From Spiroplasma endosymbiont of Atherix ibis (lineage in GTDB: Bacteria; Bacillota_I; Bacilli_A; Mycoplasmatales; Mycoplasmataceae), in assembly GCF_964020005.1 (NCBI RefSeq), contig NZ_OZ026474.1:806001-870000 (forward strand): a stretch of DNA of 64,000 bases. The letters are read 5' to 3'. Shown one piece after another: positions 3,870-54,467 of this stretch. A program made the translations under genes and the position numbers. The notes beneath the pieces are model-generated. The model did no database searches. It saw nothing but the letters and a program-made list of their open reading frames with translations, and had not been told where the DNA came from. Position 1 is the first letter of the stretch; each line of letters begins with the position of its first letter.

Positions 3870-4960
3870 TTAAAGTGCTATATATTCCAATGAATTAAGA
3901 AGTAGCTCTGATTCAAGTTGAATTTTTAAACAAATTAACTTGGCAAATTTATTTTTACTTGTTATATTTGAAAAATTGAACAAACCTATTGGGTGAATTT
4001 CTTGTCTTTGAAAGATTTTTTCTACAGATAAGTCATTTTCAACTCATAATTTATAAAAATTCTTATTATTAAGGTTATTTAATGCATCAACTCTTTTAAC
4101 ATCTAAGAATTTTGCCATTTTTAAGTCCATTGTATCAGCATTTGTTGTATATTTTTCACTAAACTCTATTGATTCATTTTTATATTTACCGTTCAAATTT
4201 CCTTTTTTAGATACTATAACTCCTTTATATTTTTCAGAAAACTGTTTATCTTTAATTACAAGTCTGTCTAAAGATAATTTGAAAAGAGTTATTTTTAAGA
4301 AGGGTTTTAAAGCTCATAAAATAACAATAATAAAAATAAATTCAGAAGAATCAAAAAGAAAAAACTTTGCATTATCTGTATAGTTAAAAGTCAAAGTATT
4401 GTCTATATAAAAAAATGACTCTTTGTTTTTATACTCAAATTTTAAAAAATTAATATCTTTATTAAAGATTTCATTATCATTTTTAGTTTTTAAGTATTCA
4501 ATTATTGTTCCTTCATTTTTAACTAAAGTTAAATTTGAATTTAAATAAACAAGTGAAACATTTTTTAACTCTTTAAACTTATCATTTGAAGAATAATAGT
4601 AGTTATAAATATCTTTTAAAATATTTGCATTATAAATTGCTTTATTTATATCACTACATTTTTATAATTTGATCGACTAATTAATTTAATTAAAAAAATA
4701 AGTGGAATATTTATAATAACTGAGCAAAGAATTACATAATATATTCATCATCCAAATACTTTTTTATCAATAAGAGCTTTAATAAATGCTCAAGCTCAAA
4801 AAGCTGTTAAAGCAATTAAAATAAATTCAAACATAATTATTATTTTTTTATTTCTTGTTATCTTTTTTATGATATTTTTTAAATCATTATCAGATTTTAC
4901 TGATTCTTTTACTTTACTATATAAATTAGTATCTACTTTTATTTTCATTTTATTTTTCAT
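3870..4960 (-). pseudogene. DUF3137-type membrane protein, frameshifted (copy 1)
   Basis: A two-part reading frame of about 360 codons. The first part starts MKNKMKIKVDTNLYSKVKE with an AGGA site and encodes two hydrophobic segments (around MFEFILIALTAFWAWAF and YYVILCSVIINIPLIF). It stops at a TAA at 4646-4648. The protein continues in the adjacent frame from SDINKAIYNANILKDIYNYYYS to LESELLLNSLEYIAL. One missing A in an A run near 4660 explains the break. The second half matches copies 2 and 3 below (NNKNFYK, HPIGLFNFSN) and the DUF3137 pattern, which has an Ala/Arg-Tyr/Phe-Leu-Thr-Pro segment. Function is unknown. It lies directly downstream of lemA on the same strand. A sequencing error in the homopolymer is possible. 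Confidence 0.75.
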
Positions 4961-16259: not shown

Positions 16260-16735
16260 CTAAAAAGATTTTATAAAAGTATTTAAATAAATATTTAATT
16301 TCTTTTCAAAATTTGATATTTTAAGAAAAAAATATTTATCAGTATCATAGTAACTATTTTTGTATTCTATTGAACAGTGCAATTTTTCATAAAATAAATA
16401 AACAATCAAACCATTATTAATAATATCTTTAACTTCCATATAAGTCATGTGAATTAAATTATTTAATTTATTTAAATCAGAAATAGCAATATTTATTTGT
16501 TTTGCTTGATCAAATGTTTTTAAAAGTAAGCTTCTTTTTTTTCTATTTTTTCTTTTATATCTTTTTCTTGATTAAAGTTATATTCAACTTTTAGTTGTTT
16601 TTGCATCATAGTAAAGAAGTTATTTATATTTAAAACATTGAAAAAATCTTCAAATTCCCATTTAAATTTAATATCTTCAATTTTAGTTTCTATAAACTTT
16701 TTTTTGAATTTTTTTGTAATCTCTTCTACTAACAT
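16260..16735 (-). pseudogene. Hypothetical protein, frameshifted in an A run
   Basis: The 5' part starts MLVEEITKKFKKKF and ends KIEKKEAYF at a TAA. The second part (SLLLKTFDQAKQINIAISDL...FIKSF) is open in the neighbouring frame. The two join cleanly if one base is changed in the run of eight A (on the gene strand) near 16545. The combined product of about 158 residues is charged and helical with no recognised family. It lies directly upstream of the nucleosidase-like gene, on the same strand. Slippage or a homopolymer error are possible. Confidence 0.5.
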
Positions 16736-30017: not shown

Positions 30018-30341
30018 CTATGATTTTACGCTATTTTTTAGATTATCAAATCCACTTTTTGTTTCTTTAATTTTAATTTATGGTGCTTTTAATAATTCTG
30101 GTCTAATTGATTTATAACTTAATTTTACTTAATTCTTATCATTTAAAATATCTATAATTTCAACTTCATATTCTTCATTTAAATTTAAAAACTCATCAAT
30201 ACTTTTAACATAAAAATCTGATATTTCTGAAATATGAATTAATCCTTTTATTACTTTGTCTTCATCGATTACTTAACAAAAAGCTCCATATTTCACTATA
30301 GCAGTAATTTTAGTTTTTACTTTTTGTCCTTTTTTTAACAT
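30018..30341 (-). pseudogene. S1-domain RNA-binding protein (YugI-like) with three in-frame TAA codons
   Basis: The frame starts MLKKGQKVKTKITAIVKYG with AAGGAG nine bases upstream and ends at a TAG at 30018-30020, 107 codons later. It encodes one S1 domain, including GLIHISEISDFYVKSIDEFL and VKLSYKSIRPELL, as in general-stress S1 proteins of Firmicutes and Mollicutes. TAA interrupts it at 30273-30275, 30129-30131 and 30078-30080, each time replacing one codon with no shift. The sites are after GAFC, after DKN, and after LLKAP. Relatives usually carry a polar residue (Glu, Gln or Lys) at such places. As read, only about 20 residues would be made. No indel is present and the flanking motifs are well kept. 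Confidence 0.8.
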
Positions 30342-30430
30342 CCTATTGCTCTCCTTACAAATTAATTATAAACTTAATTTGTAATATCAATAATAATTTT
30401 AAAAAAATTTTTTAAAAAGTAGGTGAAATT

Positions 30431-30670
30431 TTGGAAAAAATTAATTTAGAAGAGAAAGTAAAAGCTACTCTTGAACAATTAAGAATGTATATCACACAAG
30501 ATGGTGGAGATATGGAATTTGTTGCTATCAAAAATAGATTAGTTTATATAAGACTTAAAGGTAATTGTGTTGGATGTGGTTTAACAGAATTGACATTTAA
30601 AGAAGGTGTTGAAGGAGTTCTTATTGAAGAATTTCCTTATGACATTGATGGTGTAGAACTTGTAATGTAG
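30431..30670 (+). CDS. NifU-like iron-sulfur scaffold protein
   Basis: A 79-aa NifU C-terminal domain protein. The CxxC cluster ligand motif is in GNCVGCGLTELTFKEGVE. The helix EEKVKATLEQLRMYI and strand DGGDMEFVAI precede it, as in NifU/NfuA. It would hold or pass on a [4Fe-4S] cluster. The start is TTG with AGGTG five bases upstream. It is transcribed toward the suf operon but is clearly related in function to it. Confidence 0.88.
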   Translation: MEKINLEEKVKATLEQLRMYITQDGGDMEFVAIKNRLVYIRLKGNCVGCGLTELTFKEGVEGVLIEEFPYDIDGVELVM

Positions 30671-30688: not shown

Positions 30689-31129
30689 ATGGTTTTTTTA
30701 ACTCCAGAAACAGATATTATAATTGCAACATTTAATGGTATTTCAGTAATAACTCTAGTTACAGTATCTTTTATACTTCCTTTTTTAATTAAAAAGTATA
30801 ATGACAAAAAACAAAAAATTGATGCAGGAGAACGTTAACTTTCAGATGCTTTTGATAAATATTTTTCAGATCAGTATCCTAAAAATAATTTTGAATGATA
30901 CGTTGTAGAAATAAAAGCAATTATTAAAAGAAATGAAATTAAAATAATTATTTGTACAAATTGTAAGAAAAAATGTACAAGTAATAAATATATGGAATGA
31001 TTTGAAAATGTTGATAAAACAATACCTGAAGTAAATAATTTCTCTTTTAAAGTAGGAAAAATTAGTTTTAAAATTGAACTCACTACTTTATTTTATTATA
31101 AATGCATAACAAAAAAAGCAATTAATTAA
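30689..31129 (+). pseudogene. Small membrane-anchored protein with one in-frame TAA
   Basis: Starts MVFLTPETDIIIATFNG with AGAGGA upstream, 18 bases after the NifU-like gene. Residues 14-34 form one membrane segment (NGISVITLVTVSFILPFLI). After GER the frame meets TAA (30836-30838) and continues unshifted with LSDAFDKYFSDQYPKNNFEWYVV for about 97 codons to a TAA at 31127-31129. The downstream part has a CTNCKKKC cluster of Cys. The stop truncates the protein to 49 residues, leaving only the anchor. No family recognised. The 3' end lies inside the shared terminator. Confidence 0.6.
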
Positions 31130-44229: not shown

Positions 44230-45537
44230 TTATAGTTCAAACTTGGTAAAATTCTTTAAAATTCCTAAAGTATTTTTATAAATAAAATTATTTTTTTCTT
44301 CTTTAGAATTAAACTCTAAATTTTTATCAACTTTTATTAAACCCATATTTGCTTTCATGGGTTTCAATTTTTTATGTTTTGGATTAGTAATATAATTTAT
44401 TAAACTTCCTAAAACTGTTTCTTCAGGAAAAGGTATAAATTTTTTATTATTAATAATACTTATAATTCCTTTTGCTGCAACTAGACCCGTAGCAAAAGAT
44501 TCAATATAACCTTCAACTCCTGTTATTTGTCCAGCAAAGAAAATGTTTTTCTTTCTCATCATTTGTAGCTTTTTATTAAGTATTTTAGGTGAATTTATGA
44601 AGTTATTTTTATGCATAACACCAAATCTTTTAAAAAAAGCCTTTTCAAGTCCTGGAAGGGTTGAAAATACTTCTTTTTGTGCAGATCAAGTTAAATTTGT
44701 TTGAAAACCTACCATATTATATAAATTATCAATAGCATCATCTTTTCTTAATTGAACTACAGAATAAGGTTTAATTCCATTTTCATTTTCAAGATTGTTT
44801 GAAGACATTGCAGATCTTAAAAGTACTTTTTTAGAAATTTTAGCCAATTGTTCAATTGGCTGACATCCTTTAAAAAATATCTCATTTTCAAAATCCTTTA
44901 ATTTAACTTGTTGAGCATTTATTAATTTTTTATGAAAAATATTAAATTCTGGTTCACTTAGAGGAATACAAATATAACTATTATCATTGCTATGTCTAGA
45001 TTTATAATAAACTTTTGTAAAATCAATAGATTGCTTTTCTAAAATTGGTGATGAAGCATCTAAATAAAATAATTTTTGCTTTCCTAAGATTTTTTCGATT
45101 TTTAATTGAAAATTATTAGAAGATAAAGGACCTGTTGCAATTAAAATAATATCTTGATTCTCTTTATCTATTTCTAAAAATTCCTCTTCAAAAATTTCAA
45201 TATTTTTATGTTTTCTTATTCTTTCATCTACAAGTTTAGAAAAACATTCTCTATCAACAGCTAAAGCATCATCTGAAGGTATTTGAGTTTTATAAGCGCA
45301 ATCCAATATAAATGATCCTAATTGCTCAAGTTCCTTTTTTAATATACCTACTGCATTTTGAGTTGAAATACTTCTAAAAGTATTTGAACAAACTAATTAT
45401 GCAAAATTATCTGATTTTTGAATTTCATTTTTTTGAATTTTCTTTTTCTCATAAAGATGAACTTTAATTCCCTTTTCAGCTAACTGTCAAGCTGCTTCAC
45501 ATCCAGCTAAACCAGCTCCAACTACTATAACTTTCAT
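44230..45537 (-). pseudogene. trmFO: TrmFO/RlmFO folate-dependent uracil-5 methyltransferase with one in-frame TAA
   Basis: This flavoprotein makes 5-methyluridine in tRNA (U54) or 23S rRNA using methylene-THF. The frame has [72 protein letters not shown], and FFAGQITGVEGYIESFATG, at normal length (about 435 codons). At codon 47 it reads TAA (45397-45399), between DNFA and LVCSN. Most relatives have FAELVCSN, so the stop sits at a conserved Glu near the active-site region. Everything else looks functional, with no shift. GGAG precedes the ATG, which overlaps the cutC stop. If real, the stop should inactivate the gene. Confidence 0.85.
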
Positions 45538-52762: not shown

Positions 52763-54467
52763 TTACTTATTATTATTAATTTTTTCTAACAGTATTCTTT
52801 GATTTTCTGTTAATCCCTCTTCACTTAAAATTGTTGCTAAAATATTATTTGTTTTAACTATTTCAGAGTGATCTATTGAAAGTCTAGAAGTAAATTCATT
52901 TAAAGTGTCAATAATTTTATTTGAATTTATTGAAGTTTTTTCATCATTTAAAGTACTAATTACCATATTTGATTCTTTAATTACTTTATTATATTCATCT
53001 CAAGGAACAGGAACAGAATGCATTCTTCCATCTACCCCTCAAACTAAAACATAATCAACTTTTGGAGTTATACTATAACCTTCAGCAATAACATTTATAT
53101 ATTCATTATTACCATCTTTTTTAATAAAGCTAGTTTTTAGAATACTTGGTGTAACAGAATCTTCATGACCTAAAGTTTTCCTATAATATTTATTTGCAAT
53201 AGCTTCATATTCTCAATTAGATAAATTTTGTTCTTGAGCATTACTTACTGGTATTTTTGTTAATCTTTTTTCTTGGTAAATAGGAATTGCAAGTAAAGGT
53301 GAAAATCCTAAAAAGAAATTATTAAAAGTACCCATATTAAGTGCCATAAAACCACTTTTAATTTTTTCAAAATCAAAATGCTTATATTCTTCTACATTTC
53401 TTTCCAAAGCTAAATAATCAATATAGTTATTAAATAAAATACTTAAATTTGAGACTTTTTTCAATCTAAAATTATTTTTAGAATCAAAATAAGGTGCTTT
53501 AATAAGTTCTATTAATTGCTTTCTCAGCTTTTTTATCCAATTTATATAATTCTTTTTGAAATTCTTTATCACTTAAATCTTTTAAAGATTTAAGTGGTTT
53601 TCGATCAAAATCTAAATTAGGACAATGTTCATTATAATAAAATATAGATGATTTATTATAATAAAAAGGCATTGGTTTAATAACACTAGCATAAAGAATT
53701 TCAGTTCTTGTTCGTGTTTTTGAATTTCCCTGTGAATCAGTATAATTTTCAGTTCAGAATATGGTTAGAGATCCTATATATTCTTTTTTTCTAATTTCAT
53801 GAACTTTTGTTTTTACTATTATAAATGGGTTATTTACAAGTTATCCACTTGATAGATCAACTACAGTTTTATCACTTTCTAAATCTTTTAATCCAATACT
53901 TTTGAAAAAATTAAGTTTAGTATTTTGTAAGTAATTGTCAAATTTAACTAAACCTAATGTACTTTCAATTAGTTTTTTTGATATTCTACTATAAAATAAA
54001 TTATTTAAAGATTTCATTTGTTCTCAAGCTTTTTGAGTTAACTCATTAATTTCTAATTGAATTTTGTTTACTATTGTTGATAAATTCTTTATTAATTTAT
54101 TTATCCTTAAAAAAATTAATAATAAAAAAGATATTAATAATATTACACATATTGAAATAGTTATTGAGATATACAATATAAATTTATCTAAGTCTTTTAA
54201 AAAGTAAAAAGCAATAACTGGTGTTAAAATAGATATTAAACACATAATTATAAGAAATAGTCTCAAACCTTTATATTTACTTATAACTTTTTTTGTACTG
54301 TTTAATTTCTTTTCTTGTTTTTCAATTGATTCTACAGTAATACTGTTCAAATTTTTATCAACTTTTGATATTTTAAAAAGTCTTTCAAACTCTTTTTCAC
54401 AGTTTAACTGATGCTCTGATTGATAAATTTTAAATTCTTTTGCTGGATTATATATAATTTCCTTCAT
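52763..54467 (-). pseudogene. Two-pass membrane protein beside LemA, broken by an in-frame TAA and a frameshift
   Basis: Starts MKEIIYNPAKEFKIYQSEHQ. Two hydrophobic segments follow (LFLIIMCLISILTPVIAFYF and FILYISITISICVILLISFL), then a long soluble part. The frame meets TAA at 53841-53843 (LSSG, stop, LVNNPFIIVKTKV) and continues unshifted for about 110 codons. Near 53510-53570 it shifts by one base (KKAEKAI to ELIKAPYF). The third piece runs to a TAA at 52763-52765. The joined product would be about 567 residues. Topology resembles the DUF3137 copies, but I see no shared motif. No family assigned. Confidence 0.6.

Follow-up and report, generated by a model that had tools for sequence, protein, structure and literature searches.

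A short S1-domain gene in the genome of the Spiroplasma endosymbiont of Atherix ibis is very probably a young nonsense pseudogene, one of many marks of decay in an eroding Spiroplasma genome whose mutation spectrum runs AT-ward and is rich in G:C>T:A changes. The gene lies in the window analysed here, a stretch of 64,000 nucleotides, where its frame occupies positions 30341..30018 on the minus strand; 107 codons precede the original terminal stop, a TAG at 30018..30020, when TGA is read as Trp, and the translation is MLKKGQKVKTKITAIVKYGAFC*VIDEDKVIKGLIHISEISDFYVKSIDEFLNLNEEYEVEIIDILNDKN*VKLSYKSIRPELLKAP*IKIKETKSGFDNLKNSVKS* (asterisks mark stops). The first-pass annotation, which gave no strand, had described an S1-domain frame that starts behind a good ribosome-binding site, ends in TAG and is cut three times by TAA without an indel, and translation, Pfam and orthologues all bear this description out: the three TAA codons are the sole interruptions, and there are no indels in the frame. 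The ribosome-binding site, AGGAGAG (30349..30355, minus strand), stands 5' of an ATG at 30341-30339, and the 25 nucleotides upstream of the frame, including AAGGAGAG, match those of two close relatives (L005 and L006) exactly.

As for family, Pfam recognises a single S1 domain (PF00575, 41.6 bits) over residues 3-77 of the 107, and the best NCBIfam match is to CvfD (NF040579, 73.9 bits). An intact orthologue scores 74.5 bits against the same model, and neither it nor the interrupted frame reaches the cut-off of 117 bits. Judged from its sequence, the encoded protein thus seems nearest in kind to CvfD/YugI/GSP13, the single-S1-domain proteins of Firmicutes, with which it shares length, S1 fold and top-scoring family, rather than a formal member of that family; it differs from them in that the copy studied here carries three stops and in that even its intact Spiroplasma orthologue falls under the model cut-off.

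An intact orthologue is present in each of the 19 other Spiroplasma genomes covered by a genus-wide search, at identities of 48 to 83%, and none of these orthologues contains a stop; the three stops occur in this genome alone, and the loss is specific to its lineage. A scan of genome contigs brought up nothing but distant S1 relatives. On the minus strand, the first bases of the stops are 30275, 30131 and 30080. At codon 23 (30273..30275) all 19 relatives have Glu, encoded by GAA or GAG, and at codon 71 (30129..30131) all 19 have Gln; codon 88 (30078..30080) is a variable site at which the five closest relatives have either Glu or Asp. In the closest relative of all (G008), the three codons are GAA, CAA and GAA, which supports the earlier suggestion of a recent loss by single-base changes. 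Additionally, the frame contains no ATG, GTG or TTG in phase beyond codon 16, so restart of translation behind the stops is unlikely.

How well has the remainder of the frame been kept? The first-pass annotation called it otherwise well preserved, which holds only in part. Besides the stops, the copy carries 13 private amino-acid changes that are absent from five relatives, and when invariant columns are defined on those five relatives, 10 of 79 are broken here, stops counted; the same test applied to each relative in turn finds 0, 2, 3, 2 and 5 broken columns. The premise that scattered substitutions are missing, on which the supposed oddness of the stops rested, therefore fails. The excess of nonsynonymous over synonymous changes (N:S) depends on how changes are polarised. 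Under strict polarisation with two outgroups, 11 nonsynonymous changes and 2 synonymous ones fall on the branch leading to this genome, whose 11 amino-acid changes compare with 0 on the sister branch leading to G008; with G014 as the lone outgroup the ratio is 12:8, and under loose polarisation it is 13:10 against 6:6, in which case the two branches do not differ. Even so polarised, the 13 nonsynonymous changes observed are more than intact genes would predict (5.0; P=0.002). Relaxed selection on the frame thus has moderate support from these comparisons, with the N:S excess hanging on the polarisation rule. In simulations of neutral decay with 10-20 substitutions at the lineage's fourfold-site rates, at least three stops arose in 3-15% of runs; in other words, a count of three is nothing extreme in a copy free of selection, though it lies at the simulation's upper end (P 0.03-0.15).

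The S1 gene is not alone. We sampled 304 kb of this genome in stretches (the window plus L055-L066), together with the corresponding regions of G008 and G014. Internal stops are found in 13 of 202 genes that are intact in both relatives, or about 6% of the conserved genes sampled, whereas the reverse count in G008 is 1 of 206 (P=0.0007); the stops G008_B_65750, G008_B_69669 and G008_A_83290 were dropped as start-site or overlapping-frame artefacts. Nearly all internal stops of the sample are TAA, and a frameshift is present in only three of the broken genes. Clean stops without frameshifts had been considered odd for an AT-rich genome, but nonsense with few frameshifts turns out to be the rule for broken genes across the part of the genome that was sampled. 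In the window, six genes are broken relative to G008. Besides the S1 gene, these are a conserved 150-codon gene (30689..31117, plus strand) that gave no match in a family search and has one in-frame TAA (30836) where relatives have Ser; trmFO (44233..45537, minus strand), whose codon 47 (45399), Glu in relatives, is here an in-frame TAA, the same type of event as in the S1 gene; a MAG1210-family gene (52766..54467, minus strand), with both a frameshift and an in-frame TAA (53843) where the relative has Glu; and two genes split by frameshifts, at 3873-4960 and 16263-16735. The named broken genes of the sample are ung, trmFO, dusB, rlmN, rsmB, proC, guaA, an FtsX-type permease and an acyltransferase-like gene. 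For the most part these are of a dispensable type (ung, trmFO, dusB, rlmN, rsmB and proC); guaA, damaged by a frameshift and a TAA, is not obviously dispensable and counts against a picture of purely dispensable loss.

The substitutions that separate this genome from its closest relative show a shift in spectrum. This branch carries 467 nonsynonymous G:C>T:A changes, the G008 branch 124; for synonymous G:C>A:T the counts are 961 and 535, while synonymous A:T>G:C changes are fewer here (2021 versus 2764). Asp-to-Tyr replacement, which involves the same change of base in a neighbouring codon, is raised too, with 29 GAT>TAT changes against 5 in reverse. Among 32 TAA codons with a single-step origin, 21 arose by G:C>T:A (15 from GAA, 3 from TCA and 3 from TAC), compared with an expectation of 14% from fourfold-site rates. 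We read this over-representation as suggesting that the stops are younger than the average substitution and record the recent spectrum. Relative to that of its closest relative, the spectrum of the lineage is AT-ward and rich in G:C>T:A.

Repair genes may account for part of this shift. The gene for uracil-DNA glycosylase, ung (G000:C1:30335-31003, L056, outside the window), has an in-frame TAA at codon 35 that is unique to this genome among the 20 searched; the other 19 have an intact gene. The interrupted copy additionally carries a Pro-to-Thr change in its HPSP motif, which all eight relatives that were checked keep whole. Loss of Ung would raise C>T, but it does not explain the G>T excess. 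Loss of 8-oxoguanine repair was considered as a source of G>T and rejected: Fpg is present without obvious damage, and MutY/Nth was found in none of the 20 genus genomes searched. Fast-evolving Spiroplasma without mutS/mutL have been described in work on S. poulsonii (PMC8208695), and high substitution rates with reduced repair, as reported there for the genus, are a likeness to the present case; what differs is that here the comparison is with a close relative and brings out a broken ung and a G:C>T:A shift.

Might the S1 stops simply be wrong bases, with an intact gene in the culture? Damaged template DNA could mimic what we see, namely many single-base stops, skewed toward one change class, in otherwise similar genes, and N:S in trmFO does stay low around its lone stop. 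Sequencing errors, however, would not spare RNA genes, and across 2514 G/C sites of 23S rRNA and tRNA we count 2 G:C>T:A changes, whereas the fourfold-site rate would, without selection, predict about 36. The stops are also commoner in genes of lower conservation (18 in 36.0k codons versus 7 in 39.2k), and ung is damaged beyond its TAA. A base-call or assembly error, one of the causes raised at first, is on this evidence very unlikely.

Readthrough, another cause put forward, fares slightly worse. If UAA were occasionally decoded as an amino acid, in most cases Glu, a full-length S1 protein would be made, and the idea that TAA encodes Glu was prompted by the excess of Glu at stop sites (11 of 22 stops). 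From other bacteria, moreover, conserved in-frame stops under purifying selection have been reported (PMC7918605). The S1 gene does not behave in this way, in that its stops are confined to one genome rather than conserved across species, and private amino-acid changes have accumulated in the frame, also beyond the first stop, where purifying selection would be expected. No suppressor tRNA was found: the 28 distinct tRNAs include none with a UUA anticodon, and the single Glu tRNA has UUC. RF1 is intact, and TAA is the normal stop, terminating 45 of the 53 window ORFs of at least 100 codons. The Glu bias at stops accompanies the general G>T excess seen in GAT>TAT; the second S1 stop stands where all relatives have Gln, not Glu; and a search for a common sequence context around the TAA codons found none. 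The tRNA set, the intact RF1, the use of TAA as a stop and the general G>T excess together are the grounds for rejecting TAA as a Glu codon and make recoding of the S1 frame highly improbable. The same low probability attaches to a leakier version, in which near-cognate tRNAs would partly insert Glu or Gln at UAA, the TAA-containing genes, S1 among them, would still give some protein of full length, and this would be why a TAA in place of a Glu codon is tolerated. A clean in-frame TAA in a mollicute, then, need not imply recoding. Nor is it at all plausible, and here we consider the chances slimmer still, that the 22-residue leader peptide, or else the transcript, retains a function in its own right. 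The start codon and ribosome-binding site are indeed the same as in relatives, but a recent loss would leave the leader unchanged anyway; 22 residues reach no further than the beginning of the S1 fold, and two further stops with many changes downstream show that the remainder has been free to decay.

We favor, instead, decay of the gene in the following manner. A dispensable CvfD/YugI-type S1 gene would have been freed from selection in the lineage of this genome, and would then have gained three nonsense changes, relative to the GAA, CAA and GAA of G008, along with roughly twelve amino-acid changes; the loss would be so recent that indels need not have appeared yet. The lineage shows an excess of G:C>A:T over its closest relative and a still more marked one of G:C>T:A, with the result that stops arise most commonly by GAA>TAA. 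The S1 gene belongs to a group of genes that are disappearing mostly through point nonsense, with relaxed selection plus altered DNA repair, ung itself being broken, as the probable driver. We infer that no product is made from the frame.

On its own, the S1 gene is one more pseudogene and quite ordinary; it is the genome-wide pattern that is of moderate interest. Together with the genome sample, it clearly illustrates the early erosion of a bacterial genome with intact close relatives, proceeding mostly by one class of point change, in which ung is broken while several tRNA and rRNA modification genes fall together. In a cultivable genus, one can test directly in what order genes are lost and how the loss of repair relates to the mutation spectrum.

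The RNA-modification genes deserve separate mention. trmFO, dusB (L055:18829-19824, in-frame TAA), rlmN and rsmB (window-continuation positions 75812-76882 and around 79551, L060) are each interrupted by TAA and are being lost together. RNA-modification genes of this sort have repeatedly been lost in Mollicutes, and trmFO is a pseudogene in S. citri (PMC4014445, PMC7226160). The S. citri gene is an example of the nonsense pseudogenes of eroding host-associated genomes, and it resembles the present case in three respects: the genus is the same, the type of loss is the same, and trmFO is broken here too. Unlike the S. citri case (PMC7226160), the present one draws on a sample of about 200 genes and is marked by mainly TAA point stops, a G:C>T:A bias and few frameshifts. 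Elsewhere in the sample, the FtsX-type permease (own_B 136697-140800, L060-L066) spans 1372 codons and carries five in-frame TAA codons with no frameshift in the alignment. Closer to the S1 pseudogene, an intact NifU-like gene (30431-30670) separates it from the TAA-broken gene at 30689-31117.
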